Part shown: positions 425-12,700 of the stretch, piece by piece
Numbering within the stretch: the stretch's first letter is position 1
Layout: each line of letters begins with the position of its first letter
Assembly (NCBI RefSeq): GCF_001007875.1
Contig: NZ_CP011412.1
Coordinates: 1,426,001-1,490,000, forward strand
Direction of reading: 5' to 3'
Source of the DNA: Sedimenticola thiotaurini
GTDB lineage: Bacteria > Pseudomonadota > Gammaproteobacteria > Chromatiales > Chromatiaceae
Length of the DNA: 64,000 nt
Notes under the pieces: model-generated
Told to the model about the DNA's origin: nothing
The model's database searches: none
What the model saw: the letters and a program-made list of their open reading frames with translations, nothing else
Made by a program: the position numbers and the translations under genes

Positions 425-447
425 GGGTCAGTGTCATCAATTTTGGC
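425..447. repeat. REP-like short repeat overlapping the transposase 3' end
   Basis: The segment begins GGGTCAGTGTCATCAATT and contains the stop codon of the RAYT gene (437-439). The same GGGTCAG(A/T)GTC-ATTGATT core recurs at 1194-1222, 1248-1276 and 2207-2259. Such repeats are typical companions of REP-associated tyrosine transposases, which act on them in trans. Confidence 0.6.
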
Positions 448-1147
448 TTTCCCGAAATGCCGCCGACTTTCTGTCTCCACCCCGCCCCAAAGGCACTGAC
501 CGCCGGCCGGTCTGGGCCTCTATCCGCGCCTTGAACCGGTCATCACCCAGGGCCCAAGCCTTGTTCGTCGCTTCCCGTATCGCCTTCAAGTCCCGTTCCG
601 GGACTTTACCGCGAAACAGGGCGCGGTAAGCACGCTGCCGCTCCGTGTCGAGTTTTCCCAGTTGACGATACATTGAATGGGGTGTCAACAACTGGATAGG
701 CTTGCCCAGGGCATTGCTCCTGTAACTGGACCAGGGGTATTCTGAGGGATGTTGCACCATGTTGGCTCTTACGGGGTTCAACTCGATATAACGGTATACC
801 GTCAGCAGATAATTTTCGGCATCCACCAGTGTGGATTTGTACCGCCCTTCCCACAAGGTTCCCGTACGGCCACAGGTCAAATTGATGTACTGAACGTACT
901 TGCGACCCTGTGCCTGCATCATACGGCTGATACCCTGCCGGTCACTGGGCGTCACCAGCAAATGGACATGATTGGTCATCAGTACAAAGGCATGGATGGC
1001 GACGTGGTATTTGGTTGCTGCGTCCTTGAGAAACGCTAGGTAGGCCTTATAATCTGCTTCATTATAGAAGCAGGCCTCCCGGTTATTACCTCGTTGAATC
1101 ACATGCTGGGCACAACCAGGCATATAGAGTCTGGGTAAGCGAGCCAT
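437..1147 (-). CDS. REP-associated tyrosine transposase (RAYT, Y1/HUH family)
   Basis: This 236-residue protein is a single-domain Y1 transposase of the IS200/IS605 superfamily. The metal-binding HUH motif is H60-V-H62 in TNHVHLLV. The nucleophile is expected to be a tyrosine in the GRKYVQYINL helix (Y84 or Y87). The segment GTLWEGRYKS around residues 96-105 and the following YIELNPVRA are hallmarks of the RAYT branch, which is usually domesticated and linked to REP palindromes rather than to mobile IS ends. The start MARLPRLY follows an AGGAGG-like site (RC of ttcctcctt). Length is normal and the frame is intact, so it is probably functional. REP-like repeats lie at its 3' end and in two copies upstream of it. 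Confidence 0.9.
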   Translation of the reverse strand: MARLPRLYMPGCAQHVIQRGNNREACFYNEADYKAYLAFLKDAATKYHVAIHAFVLMTNHVHLLVTPSDRQGISRMMQAQGRKYVQYINLTCGRTGTLWEGRYKSTLVDAENYLLTVYRYIELNPVRANMVQHPSEYPWSSYRSNALGKPIQLLTPHSMYRQLGKLDTERQRAYRALFRGKVPERDLKAIREATNKAWALGDDRFKARIEAQTGRRSVPLGRGGDRKSAAFRESQN

Positions 1148-2259: not shown

Positions 2260-2274
2260 CATTGATTCCCGGTG

Positions 2275-3273
2275 TTATTTTTCCTGTATTGACTGGCAAC
2301 TCCTGTAAACCATGTCAACAAAAGCCTTACGAAACTGTTTCCTGGCTTTGTTCGGCAATTTAGCACCTGATGTCAGTTGCAGTATCGCTGGCCAATATTC
2401 TTTTTCCAATCCTAGAAGCCACATCATATAAAGTTCATTTGATTGTAGCTGACTTTGGGGATACGGCATCAAAGGTAACATTGCAAAGCCCGAAAAATCC
2501 CCTTTGTATCTGTCGATAAATGCCTGTGCTTTGCTTTTTAGCGTAGGTACACCATGATTGGAAATCCACCTTTCAACTAAGGCTTCGTTATGTGGTTGCG
2601 GAAGGTGCAGATAGCTCCCTTCCAAAGGAACCAGCGGTGAATGGCTAAAAGCGTCCAATAAATCAACTATCGCCTCTTCCAAAGAGCCGGGATATTCCGG
2701 TATCTGTTTTTTGTGAACTCTTGAAGTAGAATTCGTAAGTCCATATAGGGAGCTTACTGTATGGTATCTCTGATCTACATTATCATACCAGCTGCCGGGC
2801 CGATCTGGAGATTTATATCTGGATTGCTCAATATGTCCTGCAATGGTTCGGGTAATTGATCCTTGCATACTGTCCGAACCGGCAGGAATGCCGGCTAATA
2901 AGACAGCAGCTTCACCACCAACATCGGGGTCAATAAATAATGGAGTAAGACTAGCAACCAATTCCAGCCTTGAATGTCGCTGCAAAAAGTCCAACGCCTC
3001 CTGCCGAAGATGAACACGATAGAAACCTTTATGACGTACGGCGGCAGCACCAATTCGATGAGAAGTCCAGTCACTTTGGTAACTCATGCGTTGCATGAGT
3101 GGTTTAGGTAATATTTTGAATTCTTTTTGAATACCGCAAACCACATCAATTGGAGTCTCTCCGGGAGGAATTTTAGTAGGACTACCATACAGCGGCAGCT
3201 CATCGTTTCCATTGCAACCGACAAGAAAGATAAGAACAATTACTAAAATAACTCTGACAAACTGTCTGGCCAT
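2275..3273 (-). CDS. Uncharacterised lipoprotein, integron cassette gene
   Basis: The 332-residue product starts with a signal peptide and lipobox FLVGC (Cys20), so it should be anchored to a membrane facing the periplasm. The rest has no domain I recognise. It contains PIDVVCGIQKEF near residue 45, a Gly/Ala-rich stretch around residues 110-135, and a C-terminal helical region rich in Lys and Gln. The ATG lies 30 bases after the GTTAGGC core of attC-1, the normal position for a cassette gene. Base composition is AT-richer than the flanking chromosome. No attC follows its stop; a REP pair is there instead. Function unknown. Confidence 0.75.
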   Translation of the reverse strand: MARQFVRVILVIVLIFLVGCNGNDELPLYGSPTKIPPGETPIDVVCGIQKEFKILPKPLMQRMSYQSDWTSHRIGAAAVRHKGFYRVHLRQEALDFLQRHSRLELVASLTPLFIDPDVGGEAAVLLAGIPAGSDSMQGSITRTIAGHIEQSRYKSPDRPGSWYDNVDQRYHTVSSLYGLTNSTSRVHKKQIPEYPGSLEEAIVDLLDAFSHSPLVPLEGSYLHLPQPHNEALVERWISNHGVPTLKSKAQAFIDRYKGDFSGFAMLPLMPYPQSQLQSNELYMMWLLGLEKEYWPAILQLTSGAKLPNKARKQFRKAFVDMVYRSCQSIQEK

Positions 3274-3302
3274 ATAAAACTCTTATTTAACTTCAGAATA
3301 AC

Positions 3303-3382
3303 GCCTAACATCACCGGCAGCAAAAAGCAGCGCGAGGAACGAGCGGCGCTTTTTGTTGTCCGTGTGTATGTGTTTGTTAGGC
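3303..3382 (-). other. attC-1: integron recombination site after the KAP cassette
   Basis: Read on the minus strand, the site opens with inverse core GCCTAAC (3376-3382) and closes with core GTTAGGC (3303-3309), a textbook RYYYAAC/GTTRRRY pair. Between them is an imperfect palindrome including AAAAAGC...GCGCTTTTT with unpaired bases, as attC folding requires. The TAA stop of the KAP gene lies inside the inverse core, common in cassettes. Length is 80 bp. Confidence 0.88.
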
Positions 3383-5527
3383 TTTTTGTTCATCTTTTTC
3401 CAACAATACTCGACGATGAATCCATACAAACTGATGCAAAACGATTGATCTATCGTTTCTCTCAAAATCTCTTGGGTAATTTTCCTGATCATCAGGGATA
3501 TTTCCTAAGAATGATTCGATAGACTTCAATATATACCCTGGATCAAAAATTCTAATTAGTGAGTTATATTGATCACGTTCAAAATCGGATTTATGTGAAA
3601 TCCCTGTCTCCATACCCCAAGCTGTAGGTGTATAAGCATCGAGCAATCGTACAATTGCTGACTTATCTTTTTCAAGAATCGAGGAAATATGTTTGATAAT
3701 CGATTCTTTCTTTGAATACTGGTTTAATATATAAAAAGTATGAGGCAAAATTCGTTTTTCTCCAGATGTAATATCGTTGACTGATTTAAGGTGATTATCT
3801 AAGCAATCCGCTAATTCTAAACCAATTTCTGCCACCTCTTCCGTAGAAAAAGCATCTTTCTCTGGTTTGTCATCTTCTTCTTTTCGTAACCATTTAAATA
3901 TCTCAAGCTGAAACGCAGAAGTGGTGGTTTGCCTAATGCACCTTACAACATGATCAACTCTATTTTTCTTTTCCAATTTCTGGACAAGGTCGCTTACTAG
4001 CATTGCGGCTTGTGTATGCGGATCATCCCAGCCAAACATACTCTCAGGATTGGGGTACTCAGAAGCCAGTTGGCAAACTGCCAGAGATAGGTAGGTTGAC
4101 TGCAACGCATTTAGTGAATTCGCTCTATTTCTTAGTTTACGAATTAGTACCCTTGAATTATCTGATGTAAGAACGTCGTGTAATGGGTTGCTTTCAGCGG
4201 AAATTTCTCCACCAGTTCCCTCTATAGTATTGATAAGCAGACTAATAGCAGCATCTGGAAAGTCTCCTTTTGGGACAGCGTAGGTAAAATAACGATCAAA
4301 GTACCCTTCGGCACAGATGCGCTGCCCATCATTCCATTTTTGATACCAGTCACTTCCATAGTGCATATTTCCGTATACTGCCTGTAGTTTTGGAAACATA
4401 TTTTTCAGTAGTTCAATATAGCCAGACGTGACTTTTCCTGTTTTTGTCAATACCCCATCAATAAGGTCTTTGATCCTTTGTTTTTCTGGCTCTGCATTGT
4501 GATGATATGAGTCATGAAAAGTACCGACAAAAGAGTCTTTATTCTTGCGCACAATTTCATATAGTTCTGGTGCGAATGTCCGTAAGCCTTCTAACAACAT
4601 TAAGTCTACTGGATTAACTTCACCTTTTAGTATAGGAAGGGAGAACATTAGGATATTACCGTAAAGTTTTGCTTTTCTAGGTGTTGTTAGGTTCTCATCA
4701 AAAGCAAGAGTAAAGTGCCTAACAAATTCTTGAACTTGTTGTTCTGATAGCTCGACTCCAGAAGTACTAAGTGCTTCATCGACACCCTGAAAACAAAACT
4801 GCCTTAAGTCTTTTGCCGGGACAGCAGGTAGATGTAATGGGACCTGTATTATTTTCTCCAAAAATTGCTCACCAGACTTTCCATTTGCTCCTGAATAATT
4901 CTCAGATAGTGAGGACGCAACAATATCCTTATCGAAGGCAAGAATGTAAGCGGTGAACCTAAAATCAGCAACAAGCTTTACCAGTTTAAATAGCGCTTGA
5001 ATTTCGCTTTTCTCTAATCGGTCAACATCATCGATTATTACTAAAATTCGCTTTTGTGAATCCTCCAACTCTTTCTCAATGCGATTCCGTAGTTCGATGA
5101 TGTCTGGTCCATGCAAAAATGCACCAACAGCCTCGCCTAATCCCTTCGCACCAGCTACCGATGCGATTCCGGGAGCTGTTTTTTTCAAAATGTCTTTAAA
5201 CTTCTCACCTTGTGTTATTAATTTTGCATCCAATGCATCTGCTAATACATCAAAAAAACCAAGCAATAGGGATTCAACGCTGCCAAACAGCCATGGATTA
5301 AACCTGACCGTGATCGCCGAACCGTTTTCTTTTATTGATTCTTCGATGAAATTTAGTACTGATGTTTTACCATCACCCCACGGCCCGTAAAGCCCGATAG
5401 TTATAGATGAAGGCTCTTGTCGTTCAGAAATTACATTTGCGACTCTCGCGGAAAATGTCGATCGTGAAAACCTGTCTTCACTCACAGTGCGTACAGGTGA
5501 ATCGCTTGAGTATTTTTCGCTGTCCAT
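3377..5527 (-). CDS. KAP-family P-loop NTPase, integron cassette gene
   Basis: The 716-residue protein carries a KAP NTPase domain in its N-terminal half. Walker A is GPWGDGKTS at residues 48-56 and Walker B is ILVIIDDVDR at 161-170, followed by the sensor-like segment AYILAFDKDIV. Between Walker A and B is the FNPWLF motif and a roughly 85-residue insertion typical of KAP proteins, here only weakly hydrophobic (GIASVAGAKGLGEAVGAF). The C-terminal half is helical and unassigned. KAP NTPases occur in several anti-phage systems and in membrane-associated complexes; a defence role here is inference. The ATG follows the attC-2 core by 16 bases and the stop is inside attC-1, so the gene forms a complete cassette without its own visible promoter. 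Confidence 0.88.
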   Translation of the reverse strand: MDSEKYSSDSPVRTVSEDRFSRSTFSARVANVISERQEPSSITIGLYGPWGDGKTSVLNFIEESIKENGSAITVRFNPWLFGSVESLLLGFFDVLADALDAKLITQGEKFKDILKKTAPGIASVAGAKGLGEAVGAFLHGPDIIELRNRIEKELEDSQKRILVIIDDVDRLEKSEIQALFKLVKLVADFRFTAYILAFDKDIVASSLSENYSGANGKSGEQFLEKIIQVPLHLPAVPAKDLRQFCFQGVDEALSTSGVELSEQQVQEFVRHFTLAFDENLTTPRKAKLYGNILMFSLPILKGEVNPVDLMLLEGLRTFAPELYEIVRKNKDSFVGTFHDSYHHNAEPEKQRIKDLIDGVLTKTGKVTSGYIELLKNMFPKLQAVYGNMHYGSDWYQKWNDGQRICAEGYFDRYFTYAVPKGDFPDAAISLLINTIEGTGGEISAESNPLHDVLTSDNSRVLIRKLRNRANSLNALQSTYLSLAVCQLASEYPNPESMFGWDDPHTQAAMLVSDLVQKLEKKNRVDHVVRCIRQTTTSAFQLEIFKWLRKEEDDKPEKDAFSTEEVAEIGLELADCLDNHLKSVNDITSGEKRILPHTFYILNQYSKKESIIKHISSILEKDKSAIVRLLDAYTPTAWGMETGISHKSDFERDQYNSLIRIFDPGYILKSIESFLGNIPDDQENYPRDFERNDRSIVLHQFVWIHRRVLLEKDEQKA

Positions 5528-5542
5528 TTAGATTCTTTTCTA

Positions 5543-5655
5543 GCCTAACGCCAAGTTAACCTGACGAGACGGAGTTGTTTGATTTTGTGGTAGCGTAGCG
5601 TAAAGCCACAAAATCGAACGACGCAGCCGAGGTCAGGTTAAACTTTTTGTTATGC
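5543..5655 (-). other. attC-2: integron recombination site before the KAP cassette
   Basis: On the minus strand the inverse core is GCATAAC (5649-5655) and the core is GTTAGGC (5543-5549). The inner L boxes pair as GTTAACCTGAC (5555-5565) with GTCAGGTTAAAC (5632-5643), leaving one extrahelical A. A second stem pairs GATTTTGTGG (5581-5590) with CCACAAAATC (5606-5615). The 113-bp site starts two bases after the upstream gene's stop codon. Confidence 0.87.
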
Positions 5656-5657
5656 AT

Positions 5658-6563
5658 TTAATTGAACCCTACGGAAGATACCGCCAGTATTTTGTAGCTT
5701 TTAAGATGACCTGTTTTGGTGGTTATCTTTTGGGCTTTGCAAAAGACCTCGTAAGGCTTTTCATCATAGTTACGTAATGCGTTTGCCTTTAGACTCTCTA
5801 CCATATCCCGTATGACACTCTCACCTCTAATAGGCTCGGCCAATACAAAAGGAATAGATCTTTCCTGTGCTGGAACGTAAATACGTCCTTTAAACGTATT
5901 TGAGCTGTAGCTTGATACAAAACCACGTATTTCAATTACTTCGTCATTAGTGAATTCTTCAATGATGTACTGAAAGGTATCCATTGATAATGTGGGGTTA
6001 AGCGGAACATCTTGGTTATTGATGTTTGTATATATTTTTGCTGTCTTGGCTGTTTTGTTTTTGTAGATGGGTCGATGGATTTCGGTTATGGCCGTAGAGC
6101 ACTTTTCGATCACCGAATCAAGTTGTGTCTCACGCACTTTCGGTAGCTCTATCTTGCTCTCTTCCGCTTCTTCATATAATTGGCCAAGAGATTTATCGTA
6201 ATCCACATGAAAGCCCAAGCTTTGTGATATTACATAGTCGTATGCAGAATAGACTAGATGACCTAGAGGAGTATTATTGGGAGCAGTTGAAACATGATAG
6301 GCAGCTGTCCCTAATACAAGAATTCCAGCTTTAACCTTCCAACTCCCTTCTTCTGACGGGAAAGTATAAATTTTTGCCCCCTTAAGAGAAGGGGCTTGAA
6401 CAATTACTTTTCCGTTAAGTATTAAGTGAGTTGTAATTGCAAGAGATCGTTGAAATCCGATGAGTGCTTGTGACACATCATACATATCAATTTCATGACC
6501 GTCTGAGTCATTACCTTCGTAAGACAACTCAAATTGAACATCATAATTTTTCATAGATTCCAT
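5658..6563 (-). CDS. Uncharacterised protein, integron cassette gene
   Basis: The 301-residue protein has no signal peptide or clear membrane segment apart from a mildly hydrophobic stretch near residues 78-90 (KAGILVLGTAAYHV). The N-terminus, YDVQFELSYEGNDSDGHEID followed by DVSQALIGFQRSLAIT, resembles a family of uncharacterised proteins (DUF7946-like, from memory and not verified). The C-terminal third has beta-rich segments (FKGRIYVPAQERSIPFVLAE) suggestive of a small barrel. The gene ends two bases before attC-2 and begins 21 bases after attC-3, so it is a complete cassette next to the KAP NTPase. Co-function with the NTPase is possible but cassettes are often unrelated. Confidence 0.78.
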   Translation of the reverse strand: MESMKNYDVQFELSYEGNDSDGHEIDMYDVSQALIGFQRSLAITTHLILNGKVIVQAPSLKGAKIYTFPSEEGSWKVKAGILVLGTAAYHVSTAPNNTPLGHLVYSAYDYVISQSLGFHVDYDKSLGQLYEEAEESKIELPKVRETQLDSVIEKCSTAITEIHRPIYKNKTAKTAKIYTNINNQDVPLNPTLSMDTFQYIIEEFTNDEVIEIRGFVSSYSSNTFKGRIYVPAQERSIPFVLAEPIRGESVIRDMVESLKANALRNYDEKPYEVFCKAQKITTKTGHLKSYKILAVSSVGFN

Positions 6564-6583
6564 TCACTTCCTGGTATTCGGAT

Positions 6584-6669
6584 GCATAACAGCTGATTAT
6601 TCTTCTCGCGCATCTCATGAGAAATGCGTCTCGCGCGAATATTGAATAAAACGACTTGATGTTCTATGC
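6584..6669 (-). other. attC-3: degenerate integron recombination site
   Basis: The core GTTATGC (6584-6590 on the minus strand) is intact. The opposite end reads GCATAGAAC (6661-6669), an inverse core with two extra bases. The middle folds into a long imperfect hairpin around CTCGCGCAT...ATGCGTCTCGCGC. It is probably the attC of a lost upstream cassette and marks the boundary of the cassette block. Confidence 0.6.
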
Positions 6670-6768
6670 ATTATATTTTCCACCAGGTAGAGAATCCCCA
6701 GCATTAGAGGCCAGTGCGTTTTTCTCTGCGCCAACCCACCAAGCCGATAAACCTTAAATTCTCAGTAG

Positions 6769-6933
6769 GTTATCAAACAAAATGGAACAGGTGAAATAAT
6801 TTCTCGTTCACGCTGGAGGGATACTGGATCTGGGGTAGAGATTGCTGTTGGCTTTGGGGATGGCGGCAACAGCACCATAAGTTACCGTTTATTTAGGCAT
6901 GCATACTGGCAAATATTTGTTGAGGATGAATGA
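6769..6933 (+). other. Open frame without a start codon, possible gene remnant
   Basis: Between attC-3 and the histidine kinase gene, a 54-codon plus-strand frame reads without interruption to a TGA at 6931. The translated part has a coherent look (DTGSGVEIAVGFGDGGNST, then YRLFRHAYWQIF), but there is no ATG/GTG/TTG start and a stop precedes it at 6766. It may be the tail of a broken gene or chance. The rest of 6670-6953 shows nothing I can name. Confidence 0.25.
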
Positions 6934-6953
6934 CTGCTTGTCAACAGCAGTAA

Positions 6954-8426
6954 TCAGCCCTGCACCAGGGGCAGTATGAAGCGGAAGATAGAGCCGTTAT
7001 CCGGTGTGGAGTCCACGCGGATCTCACCCTGTTGCAGGGTAACGATACGCTTGGCGATAGCCAGGCCCAGGCCGGCGTGCTGGCCGGATACACGCTTTTT
7101 GGCGGACTGGTAGAAGGGATCGAAGATGTGAGGCAGCTCTTCGGGGCTGATACCGCAGCCGGTGTCTTTCACAGCGATGGCGACGCCGTTTTGTTCGACG
7201 CTCAGGTCAAGCTCGATACGGCCCCCTTCACCGGTGTGGGTGAAGGCGTTTTCAATCAGGTTTTCCAGCACCCGCTCGGTCAGGCCGATATCGGCATAGA
7301 CAAACGGTAACGCCGGGGGGGGATTCATGGTGAGCTGGATCTGTTGCTGTTCGGCACGCAGCTGGTACTTCTGCACTACGTCCTGGACCAGTTCGGCAGC
7401 AGCAAAGGGCTCGCAGTGGGGTTGGGTTTCCCGGGCATCCAGGCTGGCCAGTTCAAACAGTTCGGCCACCTGCCGGGAGAGGCGGCGCGCCTGGCGCAGG
7501 GCGATGGCGGTGTACTCCTGCCGCTCGGTTTTCGCCATGGTCTCCCCTTTCAGCTCCAGCGACTCCAGGTAGCCCAGCATGGAGGCGAGCGGGGTGCGCA
7601 GGTCGTGGGAGACCTGCGCCACCAGTTTGCGCCGCAGGCTGTCCTGCTCCTTGAGTTGCTCCAGCTGTTGCTGAATATGTTCTGCCATCTGGTCAAAGGT
7701 GAGACCGAGCCGGTCCACCTCGTCACTGGGCTGTTTCTGTTCCAGCAGGTAGGGTTGATGGGAGTTGAAATTGCTCTGGTGAAAGCTTGCCATCAGGCTG
7801 GACAGGCGATGCAGCCGACGGGTCAGCAGGCGTAATACGATCAGTCCCACCAGCAGACCAAGCCCCAGGCTGACCACCACTGCCCAGCCGCTGAGGCGCA
7901 GGAAGTAGCTCTCCCGCACCATCTTGTCCACCGAGTCAAACTCCTCACCCCGCAGCACCACGTAGAGATAACCTTCCGGGTGCGCCGAGGTGGGAACAGG
8001 CGTGACGGAGAAGGCCTTTTGGCCGTCATGGCTGCGGGGATCATCCCCCAGCAGCGGATACTCTTCCGATCCCTCCAGAAAGGCGCTGATCGGCCCCAGG
8101 GAGACATGGTTGCGCTTCACCTTGCCGGGATCGGCCGAGTAGGAGAGTATCTTGCCCTCCAGGTCCAGCAGGTAGATCTCGATACTGGGATTGATCACCA
8201 TGTATTGGCGGAACGTCTCTTTCAGCGCCTCCTGGTTGAGTCGCCCCTCCTCCACCAGGTTACGATCCGCCACCAGGTTGCGGGCCAGTCCCTTGTTGAA
8301 GGATTGATTGACCTCTTGCAGATAGTATTTGGTGGCGGTGGTGCTGATGAGCGCGTACAGCAGGCCGATGGTGACGAACAGCAGCACCAGTCCGACCGCC
8401 AGTTTTGCGTAGAGTGTCCTCAGCAT
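6954..8426 (-). CDS. Two-component sensor histidine kinase (HAMP, HisKA)
   Basis: The 490-residue membrane kinase has TM1 at about 8-30, a periplasmic sensor domain at about 31-175, TM2 at about 180-202 and a HAMP segment up to about 255. The HisKA motif VSHDLRTPLASM has the phospho-acceptor H274. The ATP-binding domain shows the N box LIENAFTHTG, G1 DTGCGISPEE and G2 GLGLAIAK. The gene overlaps the 3' end of the response regulator gene by seven bases, so the two are co-translated partners. The stimulus is not evident; the sensor domain contains ALKETFRQYMVINPSIEIYL split around a PAS-like fold seen in other CpxA/BaeS-type kinases. No adjacent transporter hints at a ligand. Confidence 0.93.
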   Translation of the reverse strand: MLRTLYAKLAVGLVLLFVTIGLLYALISTTATKYYLQEVNQSFNKGLARNLVADRNLVEEGRLNQEALKETFRQYMVINPSIEIYLLDLEGKILSYSADPGKVKRNHVSLGPISAFLEGSEEYPLLGDDPRSHDGQKAFSVTPVPTSAHPEGYLYVVLRGEEFDSVDKMVRESYFLRLSGWAVVVSLGLGLLVGLIVLRLLTRRLHRLSSLMASFHQSNFNSHQPYLLEQKQPSDEVDRLGLTFDQMAEHIQQQLEQLKEQDSLRRKLVAQVSHDLRTPLASMLGYLESLELKGETMAKTERQEYTAIALRQARRLSRQVAELFELASLDARETQPHCEPFAAAELVQDVVQKYQLRAEQQQIQLTMNPPPALPFVYADIGLTERVLENLIENAFTHTGEGGRIELDLSVEQNGVAIAVKDTGCGISPEELPHIFDPFYQSAKKRVSGQHAGLGLAIAKRIVTLQQGEIRVDSTPDNGSIFRFILPLVQG

Positions 8427-9127
8427 GTCTCGGCGAACTTATAGCCCACACCCCAGACGGTCAGGATGTATTGGGGGTTGGCCGGGTCCGCCTCGATCTT
8501 GGTGCGCAGCCGGTTGATGTGGGTGTTGACGGTATGCTCGTAGCCTTCGTGGTTATAGCCCCAGACCGAATCCAGCAGCTGGATACGGGAGTAGACAGAG
8601 CCGGGGTTACTGGCGAAGTGCAGCAACAGATCAAACTCCCGGGCGGTCAGCTCCACCGGCTCACCCCGCACCCGCACCTGGTGACGGGTCACGTCGATGA
8701 CAATATCACCCCGGTCGATGATCGCCTGTGCCGGTTGCTGCTTTTTGGCTGCCGAGAGCGCTTCCGTGCGGCGAAACAGCGCCTTGATGCGGGCCAGCAA
8801 CTCCAGCACGCTGAACGGCTTGGTGAGATAGTCGTCGGCGCCCATCTCCAGCCCCACCACCCGATCCAGTTCGGAGGATTTGGCCGTGAGCATGAGAATC
8901 GGCACATAGCCTTCCGCGTTACGAATTTCACGGCAGACAGCCAGACCATCCAGGCCCGGCAGCATCAGGTCCAGCACCACCAGGTCGTAATGGCCTTTAT
9001 GAAAAGCCGTCACAGCCGCATTGCCATCGCCGATGATATCTGCCCGGCAGTCGATATCGTTCAGATGCAGTTGCACCAGACGGGCGATATCCGGGTCATC
9101 CTCGACGATCAGCACCTGATGGGTCAT
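8420..9127 (-). CDS. OmpR/PhoB-family response regulator
   Basis: The 235-residue protein has a receiver domain (acidic pocket E9-D10-D11, phospho-acceptor D53 in VVLDLMLPG, Lys103 in LTKPF) and a C-terminal winged helix typical of OmpR/PhoB (ELTAREFDLLLHFASNPG, then GYEHTVNTHINRLRTKIE and GVGYKF). It is the first gene of an operon with the histidine kinase, whose start lies inside its last codons. It should bind direct-repeat DNA and regulate genes in response to the kinase. The nearest upstream gene is the MxKDx-repeat secreted protein gene, 175 bases away on the same strand; whether that is a target is unknown. Confidence 0.94.
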   Translation of the reverse strand: MTHQVLIVEDDPDIARLVQLHLNDIDCRADIIGDGNAAVTAFHKGHYDLVVLDLMLPGLDGLAVCREIRNAEGYVPILMLTAKSSELDRVVGLEMGADDYLTKPFSVLELLARIKALFRRTEALSAAKKQQPAQAIIDRGDIVIDVTRHQVRVRGEPVELTAREFDLLLHFASNPGSVYSRIQLLDSVWGYNHEGYEHTVNTHINRLRTKIEADPANPQYILTVWGVGYKFAETC

Positions 9128-9575: not shown

Positions 9576-9718
9576 GATCGTTCTCCCTTCGGTTGGATGT
9601 TTGCCCTGGGGCAAATCGTCAGCCATACCTGATCATTTGAGATGACCAACGCTGGCATGGAGCTATTAGACAGGGGAGAGATCCAGAGCGGATCACGGAA
9701 ACTTCACAATTTGATAAC

Positions 9719-9765
9719 GGTGCAGGGTGCCGGAGTCGGTTGACGCCGGCATCCTGCACCTTTTT
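9719..9765. terminator. Stem-loop downstream of the glutamate dehydrogenase gene
   Basis: A 15-bp stem with one mismatch, GGTGCAGGGTGCCGG (9719-9733) against CCGGCATCCTGCACC (9746-9760), is followed on the plus strand by TTTTT. On the minus strand, the direction of the dehydrogenase gene ending at 9776, the A-tract precedes the stem and no T-run follows, so it would be an atypical terminator for that gene. Confidence 0.6.
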
Positions 9766-9775
9766 CCAACACAGT

Positions 9776-12700
9776 TCAGACTTCTGATTTCAGCAATCCG
9801 CCCACTCCGGCCACCACCACTGACATCATGGCAAAATCCACCGAAGTGCGCGCCTTCAGGTCGGCGATTGTCTTCAGGTGCCGATCATAGGCAAAGTGGT
9901 ACTGCTCAGCCCACTGCTCGATCATCTTCCGCGCGCTTTTCTGCTTCTTCACACTGACCAGTATCTGGGAGGTGAGATCCCGCTGATGCTTGTTCAGGGT
10001 ATCGATCAGGCGGGTCTTGGCCATGCTGTGCCAGTGGGTCTGCTCGGCCAGTTTTGAGATCTGCTCCCGCACCCAGTGGAACTCCAGCGTGGAACCGAGG
10101 TTGTAGTAAACTGAACCGACGGTCTGGATCTTCTGACCACGCAGCTTGGCCACTTCCACCAGGTCCATGGCGGCGGACAGCATCACGATCCGACTCACCT
10201 GTTGCGCCACTTCCCGTGGAACACCAGCGTTCAGGTAGTACTTGATCTGGCGATTGAGTACCAGCCGATCCTTGGCGGCCAACGGTTTTGGCATCAGCTC
10301 GATCAACTCCTGCACACCATCCTGGAAGTAATCCACCAGGTCCCGTACCACTACCCGGTCATGCCGGGCACGCAGGATCCAGACTACGCTCTGCTCGATC
10401 AGGTGGGCGATCATGCGCATCATCTCCATCTGCACTGAAGCGGCCACCTGGTTATCCAGTGCCTCGATGGAGCGCCATAGGTCGTCAATGGAGAAGATCT
10501 TGCTGGCCGCCAGGTAGGCCCGGGTCACACCGGCGATATTGGCCCCCATCTCTTCCCGCATGCGATAACCGAAGCCCGGGCCGATCTTCTCCACGATGCT
10601 GTTGGTCAGGTGGGTGGAGATGATCTCCCGTTTCAGCTGGTGCGCTTTCATCTCCTTGCTGAAACGCTCCCCCAGTACCTTGGGGAAATACTCCATCAAC
10701 TCGGTTTCCAGAAACGGATCATCCGGTATGTCGGAGTGGATCAGGGCCTCGAAATAGGTCATTTTGCTGTAGGCCAGCAGCACCGCCACCTCCGGCTTGG
10801 TGAGACCCTGCTTGGCCGCCTTGCGCTCGGCAATCACTTTCTTGCTGGGGAGGAACTCCAGCTCCCGGTTCAGCCGCCCTTCGGTCTCCAGATAGTCAAT
10901 AAAGCGCGCCTGTTCATTGAGCCGGTCAGCCGCATTGGAGACGATCATGCTGATCGACTGGGTCTGGGCATAGTTGTCCATCAGCACCAGCCGGGCCACT
11001 TCATCGGTCATCTCCGCCAGCAGCTTGTTACGCTGCTTTTCAGTCATGTCGCCGTTGGCAACGATCTGGCCCAGCAGGATCTTGATATTGACTTCGTGGT
11101 CGGAACAATCCACCCCGGCGGAGTTATCAATGGCGTCGGTATAGATCAGACCACCCTTGGAGGCGAACTCGATCCGGCCCAGCTGGGTGACACCCAGGTT
11201 GCCGCCCTCGCCCACCACCTTGCAGCGCAACTCATTACCGTTCACCCGCAAGCCGTCGTTGGCCTTGTCACCCACATCCTCATGGCTCTCCAGTTCCGAT
11301 TTGATATAGGTGCCGATGCCGCCGTTCCAGATCAGATCGACCGGGGACTTGAGCAACAGGTTGATCAGTTCGGTTGGGGTCATCCGGTCCACCTTGGCGC
11401 CGGTCATCGCCTTCACCTCGTCCGTCAGGGTGATGGACTTGGCGCTGCGGGAGTAGACCCCGCCCCCTTTCGAGATGAGCTTTTTATCGTAGTCAGTCCA
11501 GTTGGAACGGGGCAGTTTGAACAGCCGCTTCCGCTCCTTGAACGACACTTCCGGATCGGGATCGGGATCCAGGAAGATGTGCAGATGGTTGAATGCCGCC
11601 ACCAGCTTGATATGGCGGGAGAGCAGCATGCCGTTACCGAATACGTCGCCTGACATGTCGCCGATACCGAGCACCCGGAAATCGGTGCTCTGGATATCAA
11701 TACCCAGTTCGCGGAAATTACGCTTCACCGACTCCCAGGCACCCCGGGCAGTGATACCCATTTTCTTATGGTCGTAACCGACTGAACCACCGGAGGCGAA
11801 GGCATCACCCAGCCAGTAGCCGTAAGACGCCGCCACGCCGTTGGCGATATCGGAGAAACTGGCGGTGCCCTTGTCCGCCGCCACCACCAGGTAGGGATCA
11901 TCCTCGTCGTAGCGCACCACATCGACCGGCGGTACCACGGCTCCATCTTTCAGGTTGTCGGTGATATCCAGCATGCCCTGGAGCAGGGTGCGATAACAGT
12001 ACACCACTTCCTCCATCATCGCTTCCCGGGCCAGCCCGTCCAGGGGGCGCTTGACAATGAATCCGCCCTTGGAACCGACCGGCACGATCACCGTGTTTTT
12101 CACCATCTGCGCCTTCATCAGGCCCAGCACTTCGGTACGGAAATCCTCCATGCGGTCGGACCAGCGCAGACCGCCACGGGCCACTTTGCCGCCGCGCAGG
12201 TGTACACCTTCCATGCGGGCAGAGAAGACAAAGATCTCAAACATGGGCATGGGCAGCGGCATGCCCCCCACCTGGCGCGGGTCCACCTTGAATGAGATAT
12301 AGGATTTACTGTTGCCGTCGGCATCCTGCTGGTAAAAATTGGTACGCAGGGTGGCCTGGATGATATTCACGTAACTGCGCAGAATGCGGTCCTGATCCAG
12401 ACTGGCAACCGATTCCAGCAGGGTTTCGATCTTCTGCAGAATGGCGTCCAACTGGCGGTTTTTTGCCTTGCGGCGCGGATTGAACTTGACCGTGAACAGC
12501 TCCACCAGCAAACGGGTGATCTCGGTATTGCGGGTCAGGCTGTCGATAATGTAGGAGCGGCTGAACGGGAACTTGATCTGCTTGAAATAGCGGGCATAGG
12601 CGCGCAGCAGCACCACCTCTTTCCAGTTCAGTCCGGCGCCCAGAACCAGCTGGTTGAAGCCGTCGTTCTCCACCTCACCTTCCCACACTTTGAGGAACGC

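Follow-up and report, generated by a model that had tools for sequence, protein, structure and literature searches.

The locus described here lies in a 64-kb window (the whole stretch of DNA that was analyzed, bases 1,426,001-1,490,000 of contig C1) of the genome of Sedimenticola thiotaurini SIP-G1, a sulfur oxidizer from a salt marsh whose genome paper leaves integrons unmentioned (PMC4472907). The genome is complete in two contigs, of which C1, with 3,928,944 bases, is the larger and the second has 33,340. The locus is best explained, with a probability of roughly three in four, as an orphan attI platform holding three gene cassettes, which forms part of a multi-attI integron served in trans by a single IntI integrase. 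In this arrangement, several attI copies at scattered chromosomal places would be substrates in trans for one chromosomal IntI, which would insert circular cassettes at the GTT crossover of each attI by recombination between attC and attI. The direct basis comprises the attI copies, the attC sites, the anatomy of the junctions, the retention of position while the cassettes change, and one intact intI gene. The anatomy of the platform is firm, and action of IntI in trans would be its simplest account. We infer that the insertions were made by the present IntI rather than by a lost one, and that this IntI is still capable of making them.

Three models were used. R1 is an attC covariance model trained on 11 sites from the array beside intI, with the sites in the window excluded from training; R2 is a second attC model built on 43 R1 matches at E<=0.1 from other loci; and R3 is a sequence profile of 14 orphan units. 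The features, in window coordinates unless C1 is named, are:

6588..6667, plus strand: attI core copy, crossover GTT at 6590-6588, cassettes on the left (minus strand); 95% identity over 80 bp to intI-upstream DNA
6588..6805, plus strand: whole orphan platform unit of ~217 bp, attI core plus conserved distal half; from the alignment of 14 units and R3
5658..6563, minus strand: first cassette gene, DUF7946 + DUF7947, 301 aa; Pfam E 3.7e-55 and 1.1e-19
5543..5655, minus strand: attC of the first (DUF7946) cassette, R'' GCATAAC, R' GTTAGGC; R1 25.6 bits, E 3e-4; R2 30.5 bits
3377..5527, minus strand: second cassette gene, KAP-family P-loop NTPase, a distant PifA relative, 716 aa; Pfam KAP_NTPase E 1.8e-55
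3296..3382, minus strand: attC of the KAP cassette, R'' GCCTAAC, R' GTTATTC; R1 41.3 bits, E 2e-8
2275..3273, minus strand: third gene, probably the last cassette, putative lipoprotein, 332 aa; signal with LVGC, by eye
2274..2280, minus strand: R''-like remnant AAATAAC, probably of a truncated third attC; 6/7 against the expected R'' GAATAAC, complement of lead GTTATTC; by eye
6954..8426, minus strand: locus marker outside the array, a gene that we take from its sequence to encode a histidine kinase; DNA match in 8/9 genus genomes; platform synteny
C1:2525853-2527241 (L009:13854-15245): intI, intact, 463 codons; TIGR02249 453 bits against a cut-off of 265
C1:3458568 and C1:3767586: two further attI copies, from a same-genome sequence search

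The window core at 6588-6667 matches C1:2525733-2525812, a stretch that stops 40 bp ahead of the 463-codon integrase open reading frame (ORF). This likeness ends exactly at GTT on the cassette side, and homology stops at the GTT crossover in most attI copies. The intI gene is 1.09 Mb from the window, is the sole IntI match in the genome at E<=1e-20 and itself heads a cassette array. The genome holds four attI copies at E<=2.4e-10, one by intI and three orphan, the next match having an E of 0.42, and each of the four heads an array of attC sites. An earlier note on this DNA had taken 6584-6669 for a degenerate third attC. That candidate was rejected, as neither R1 nor R2 calls it and it is near-identical to the DNA upstream of intI; it is instead an attI copy ending at the GTT crossover. 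The same note saw no integrase. This holds for the window, where tblastn gave no IntI match, so that a complete integron with intI beside attI is absent from it; the search elsewhere in the genome that the note proposed found the intact gene on the same chromosome. The window site qualifies as attI by its homology to the intI-adjacent site and by the match of cassette lead and R'' at one GTT crossover. As a copy of the intI-adjacent site, it falls outside the definition of attG, which is neither attC nor attI. The exact core occurs in 0 stretches of IMG/VR. Separately, ~150 residues of the integrase precede its best model-matched stretch (153-461 of 463).

Beyond the core, a longer unit of ~217 bp is common to most orphan copies, and its distal part is missing from the intI-adjacent copies: orphan units carry their own ~137-bp extension where the intI leader would stand. 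The alignment of 14 units has a mean column identity of 70%, and the array C copy matches the unit over ~100 positions only. In the window, R3 matches 6589-6802 with 134.7 bits, this copy belonging to the R3 training set. The window core is 95% like its own intI-adjacent attI, while orphans C and D are only 80% like it and are closer to the attI of a second genome of the genus, G001 (92% and 88%). Because the window unit has a distal half of the orphan type, its attI half would appear to have been exchanged with the intI-adjacent copy. No conserved RNA structure was found in the unit (-4.45 kcal/mol, covariation term 0.06). By eye, most aligned units show a TATAAT-like box; that the distal half, which is conserved, might be a cassette promoter stays a guess, since a promoter scan of 6400-7000 yielded one match against a mean of 1.6 in shuffles.

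Applied to the 64-kb window at E<=10, R1 gives exactly two matches, both on the minus strand, and R2 agrees on both. The covariance-model check suggested by the earlier note thus bore out the two attC sites it had placed near 3303-3382 and 5543-5655, with a shift of the first boundary to 3296, as R' of the KAP-cassette attC is GTTATTC (3302-3296) in the R1 alignment. This attC is 88% and 81% identical to attC sites in two other arrays of the genome, and the stop codon of the KAP gene falls within its R''. A plain RYYYAAC..GTTRRRY pattern scan was discarded as evidence, as a backwards-read control gave 108 matches per strand against 70 for the pattern. Also as the note had it, all three genes are on one strand and AT-rich, their stretch having a guanine plus cytosine content of 40.4% against 59.6% for the right flank. 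Its description of the locus as a cluster of attC sites lacking an integrase (CALIN) is right in that two attC sites stand without an adjacent intI; it overlooked the attI copy that heads the array.

An inserted cassette starts with the half-site TTRRRY, which is complemented by the R'' of its own attC. In the window, the lead GTTATGC of the DUF7946 cassette fits R'' GCATAAC of its attC and, read from sequence, the lead GTTAGGC of the KAP cassette fits R'' GCCTAAC. The lipoprotein gene probably makes up a third cassette whose attC is truncated, because the AAATAAC at the end of the gene matches the expected R'' GAATAAC at 6/7 positions; past AAATAAC (2280-2274) comes unrelated sequence.

Junctions were read at 23 units, 18 orphan and 5 intI-adjacent. 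Thirteen orphans have a cassette-side attC and, with G001_81 dropped for want of a GTT at the junction, 12 were tested. The lead heptamer of the first cassette is the reverse complement of the first attC R'' in 9/12 orphan units; in a permutation test the maximum was 8, reached once in 200,000. In the three misses, lead and R'' agree at 6/7 positions (G001_92), an IS91-like element is in first place (G000_C), or the model skipped the first attC, for which R'' (C)ATAGAAC fits by eye (G002_40). Five orphans are without an attC match, and at G004_3 a remnant R'' GCCTAAC fits the lead GTTAGGC by eye. The match is exact in 3/5 of the intI-adjacent units, and most junctions are at one base position.

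Further support for the multi-attI reading came from a genus set of nine genomes, G000 (the present one) to G008, of which G005, G006 and G007 are 65-90% complete. At E<=0.05, a G000 scan whose first filter lost some locally known sites, including 5543-5655, gave 18 attC matches, and 17 are in four attI-headed arrays (the intI array has 10 and the orphan units have 7). All four G000 units have attC on the right side and strand, while 100,000 random placements reach at most 2/4. The lone attC match, C1:721693-721771 (38.5 bits), has no unit match in the surrounding 18 kb. Across the nine genomes, 42/64 attC have a unit on the same contig no more than 12 kb away, and every one of the 42 is on the cassette side with the expected strand; by our count, 19 belong to intI-adjacent arrays and 23 to orphan units. 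At E<=0.001, 4/9 genomes contain the 80-bp core (four copies each in G000 and G001, one in G002, three in G003). R3 at E<=0.01 gives 73 matches across 9/9 genomes (4, 12, 10, 7, 13, 4, 4, 8 and 11 in G000-G008), a count that includes the 14 training units, which match by construction, and four that are intI-adjacent, its weakest matches being partial. The distal half of the unit recurs alone at some places.

The position of a platform is kept while its cassettes change. The flanks of the window platform are orthologous to those of G002_19, G003_35, G004_3 and G008_110, the pieces being 68-84% identical to the window flank; those of platform D are orthologous to G003_1 and G004_28, with 69-88% identity to the G000 flank. 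Cassette sides within the window-platform group or within the platform-D group have no common stretch of >=200 bp, as compared at E<=1e-10 on the same strand over up to 4 kb, less at contig ends. The finding that the earlier note would have held against its proposal, the same genes in fixed order without attC sites, was not made at the window locus, where the compared relatives carry different genes. At the window-platform locus, only one cassette is present in G008, its lead GTTATAC fitting R'' GTATAAC, and beyond the cassettes G004 and G008 enter the same sequence (110 bp, 78%). The G001 contig ends at the kinase locus. The true intI locus is orthologous in G000, G001, G003, G004 and G008 and is separate from the orphan platforms.

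Cassettes are also shared between the two kinds of site. The first cassette at the intI-adjacent attI of G001 is the first at a G002 orphan attI (97% over 401 bp); this orphan is at a different locus, and the intI locus of G002 is elsewhere. In G003, a draft assembly, 668 identical bases at two contig ends join the intI array and an orphan array, and the shared stretch starts at an attC R'.

The KAP gene is carried as a cassette, as had been claimed, with the lead GTTAGGC and the attC at 3296..3382. Its product matches KAP_NTPase (PF07693) with 188.8 bits against a Pfam gathering cut-off of 20. Six relatives of the protein were found. Five, at 55-74% identity, are from Gilvimarinus, Pseudoalteromonas, and gammaproteobacterial, deltaproteobacterial and Desulfocapsaceae metagenome-assembled genomes (MAGs); the sixth (36%, a Chloroflexi MAG) has neither the lead GTTAGGC nor a 3' attC or R''. 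Because the five all have the lead GTTAGGC and a 3' attC or at least R'' (the attC in L020 and the cut attC in L023 being by eye only), the KAP NTPase gene is, on sequence grounds, a cassette that recurs in distant hosts. Two of the five have an upstream intI match.

A tentative suggestion, compatible with action of IntI in trans, is that this cassette encodes a PifA-like anti-phage (abortive infection) protein. The PADLOC PifA model matches residues 4-633 with 272 bits, and the five cassette-borne relatives, two of them with an intI match upstream, point the same way. Full-length orthology is lacking: F-plasmid PifA scores 963 bits on the same model, and identity to it is 27% over residues 9-324 only. 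No solved structure matched the KAP profile at E<=0.01. KAP NTPases also serve roles other than defense. F-plasmid PifA restricts T7 and one relative, a very narrow range, and another primary role has been considered possible (PMC8594841). Overall, a defense role for the KAP cassette is plausible. The earlier note had extended this idea to a neighboring cassette and proposed a comparison with PADLOC, in which the KAP protein matched PifA as above; the lipoprotein gave nothing and the DUF7946 protein only an E of 0.043. The lipoprotein (2275..3273) also has no Pfam or NCBIfam family at the limits applied, and a search for the DUF7946 protein on plasmids gave 1 record only, at 25% identity. By the PADLOC library the arrays are not mainly defense stores, because few of the submitted cassette ORFs, a partial set, match it: 0/10 in the main array, 0/5 in array C and 2/5 in array D, the two being an HNH endonuclease and a DndC-like protein. 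These array D genes (L027:15786-16886 and 9677-10444) encode the DndC-like protein with Pfam PAPS_reduct and the HNH endonuclease, with type II restriction models matched.

Outside the genus, in a scan of 77 family genomes (74 outside the genus) with stricter filters, 6/74 show only weak or partial unit matches. In Pseudoalteromonas sp. P1-25, a relative of the KAP cassette is near an intI match, and contig 31 has a second copy of the intI-adjacent region (80% over 121 bp) that heads seven attC matches (L111:2829-8270). This copy ends at GTT, and the lead GTTAGCT fits the first R'' AGCTAAC; no intI match was found in the 8.9-kb stretch, which meets the contig end ~680 bp past the copy. In two other genomes, the query from Pseudoalteromonas alone served as the probe.

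Several observations weigh against service of the orphan platforms in trans. Only 16/73 unit matches, 12 of them orphan, have an attC within 12 kb, and G001_49, G001_1, G001_100, G002_19 and G002_67 show none even in local scans. Conversely, 22/64 attC are without a unit within 12 kb on their contig, several of these being near contig ends; C1:721693 in G000 and G002:C42 are unit-less despite long sequence on the unit side. The orphan cores of G004 and G008 resemble the intI-adjacent attI mainly in crossover-proximal bases. The intI of G002 is reduced to a 53-aa remnant, and the 65-90% complete G005, G006 and G007 have no intI match at E<=1e-20. At the kinase locus, only the distal half of the unit adjoins in G003 (L075:7459-7587), with a partial unit 1.4 kb off, and no unit match was found in G005 (L079).

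Decay of intI is itself observed, as two overlapping frames in G003 and as the remnant in G002, and would fit an account in which every orphan array had once been a complete integron whose intI was deleted, IntI having acted in cis long ago. This account is unlikely, given that the intI leader is replaced in orphan units by a ~137-bp extension peculiar to them and that the intI locus is a distinct place, orthologous in the five genomes named above. In addition, no intI match was found beside the 22 orphan units with sequence examined, although some flanks are short (<200 bp at G006_63), which disfavors loss in place at these units.

A further alternative takes the 217-bp unit for a dispersed repeat, either regulatory or mobile (a promoter or resembling a miniature inverted-repeat transposable element), with cassettes present by chance or by attG-type insertion and attI derived from the repeat. 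It would accommodate the many units without a nearby attC call, the solitary distal halves and the ability of IntI to use attG sites (cited in PMC12444791). It is also unlikely, given that 42/42 attC near units have the expected side and strand, that most junctions share one base position and that attG sites, which occur at many loci, belong to neither the attC nor the attI type (PMC12444791).

Other elements were seen in and near the arrays. An IS91-family insertion sequence (IS) adjoins attI as the first element in two arrays (L009:11275-13733 and L026:8110-10568), with the junction GTTGAAC; by eye, its far end has what resembles an attC hairpin and includes a fitting GTTCAAC, as though the element were cassette-borne; R2 does not call this hairpin at E<=1. 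All three full IS3-family copies of the genome are within the other three arrays (L009:6222-7539, L026:4278-5596 and L027:11379-12693), of which two or more seem, by eye, to sit inside an attC, and a fourth, partial copy is at C1:2861929. A second integrase match, 47% identical to IntI, is present in two genomes (G004:C10:5455-6387 and G008:C46:5408-6367), with an attC match near the former (C10:6778-6843). At the orthologous platform of G002, where no attC match was found (L074), a 100-aa protein (L074:4009-4311) shows a sub-cut-off likeness to the HNH region of IscB/Cas9 models. Finally, a gene resembling a transposase associated with repetitive extragenic palindromes (a tyrosine transposase) is at window 437-1147 (70.8 bits against a cut-off of 80), with repeat copies of GGGTCAGTGTCAT type nearby; judged by eye, a similar-looking ORF (L078 ~7520-8536) flanks the lone cassette of the G008 locus.

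Conventionally, an integron is pictured with one attI, and degradation of integrons has been put forward as the origin of CALINs (PMC3607928, PMC9024848). It is an even bet that Sedimenticola and at least some Pseudoalteromonas have a polycentric integron, in which one IntI fills and reshuffles many attI platforms, many "degraded" CALINs are active outposts, and the attI copies are kept for this; each platform would possibly have its own promoter. Should orphan platforms be served in trans, the origin of CALINs would be open to direct testing, any CALIN could be screened for a further copy of the attI of its genome, and several cassettes would be attI-proximal simultaneously. CALINs headed by attI would be missed, because the standard tool detects no attI outside class 1 (PMC9024848).

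The openly licensed literature that was searched gave no account of genus-wide dispersed attI platforms. Like a usual CALIN, the window array has two attC sites and same-strand cassettes with no intI nearby; it differs in its attI-copy head within a conserved 217-bp unit, in having an IntI elsewhere on the chromosome, and in a platform position kept in several relatives while the cassettes change. In the Shewanella prophage M16-3, as described in the available portion of PMC9892861, the same attI heads both a complete integron and a CALIN of one genome. That case concerns one prophage, whereas Sedimenticola has a chromosomal family with 4-13 unit matches in each of nine genomes, whose units add a shared non-attI extension and orthologous loci. 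CALINs are common in Shewanella, and the available portion of PMC9229058 makes no mention of attI for them. The CALINs of Xanthomonas are likewise away from intI at conserved chromosomal positions, and no attI is mentioned there in the available portion of PMC12444791. PifA of plasmid F shares the KAP P-loop domain with the window protein and an HMM (hidden Markov model) match over most of its length; it differs in that identity is 27% and limited to the N-terminal half, and the window gene forms a cassette alone, with no pifC. Delta-attI-type cassettes of mobile integrons also have attI sequence away from intI; there, according to the available portion of PMC12901181, attI is part of the cassettes, whereas in Sedimenticola it heads a chromosomal array.
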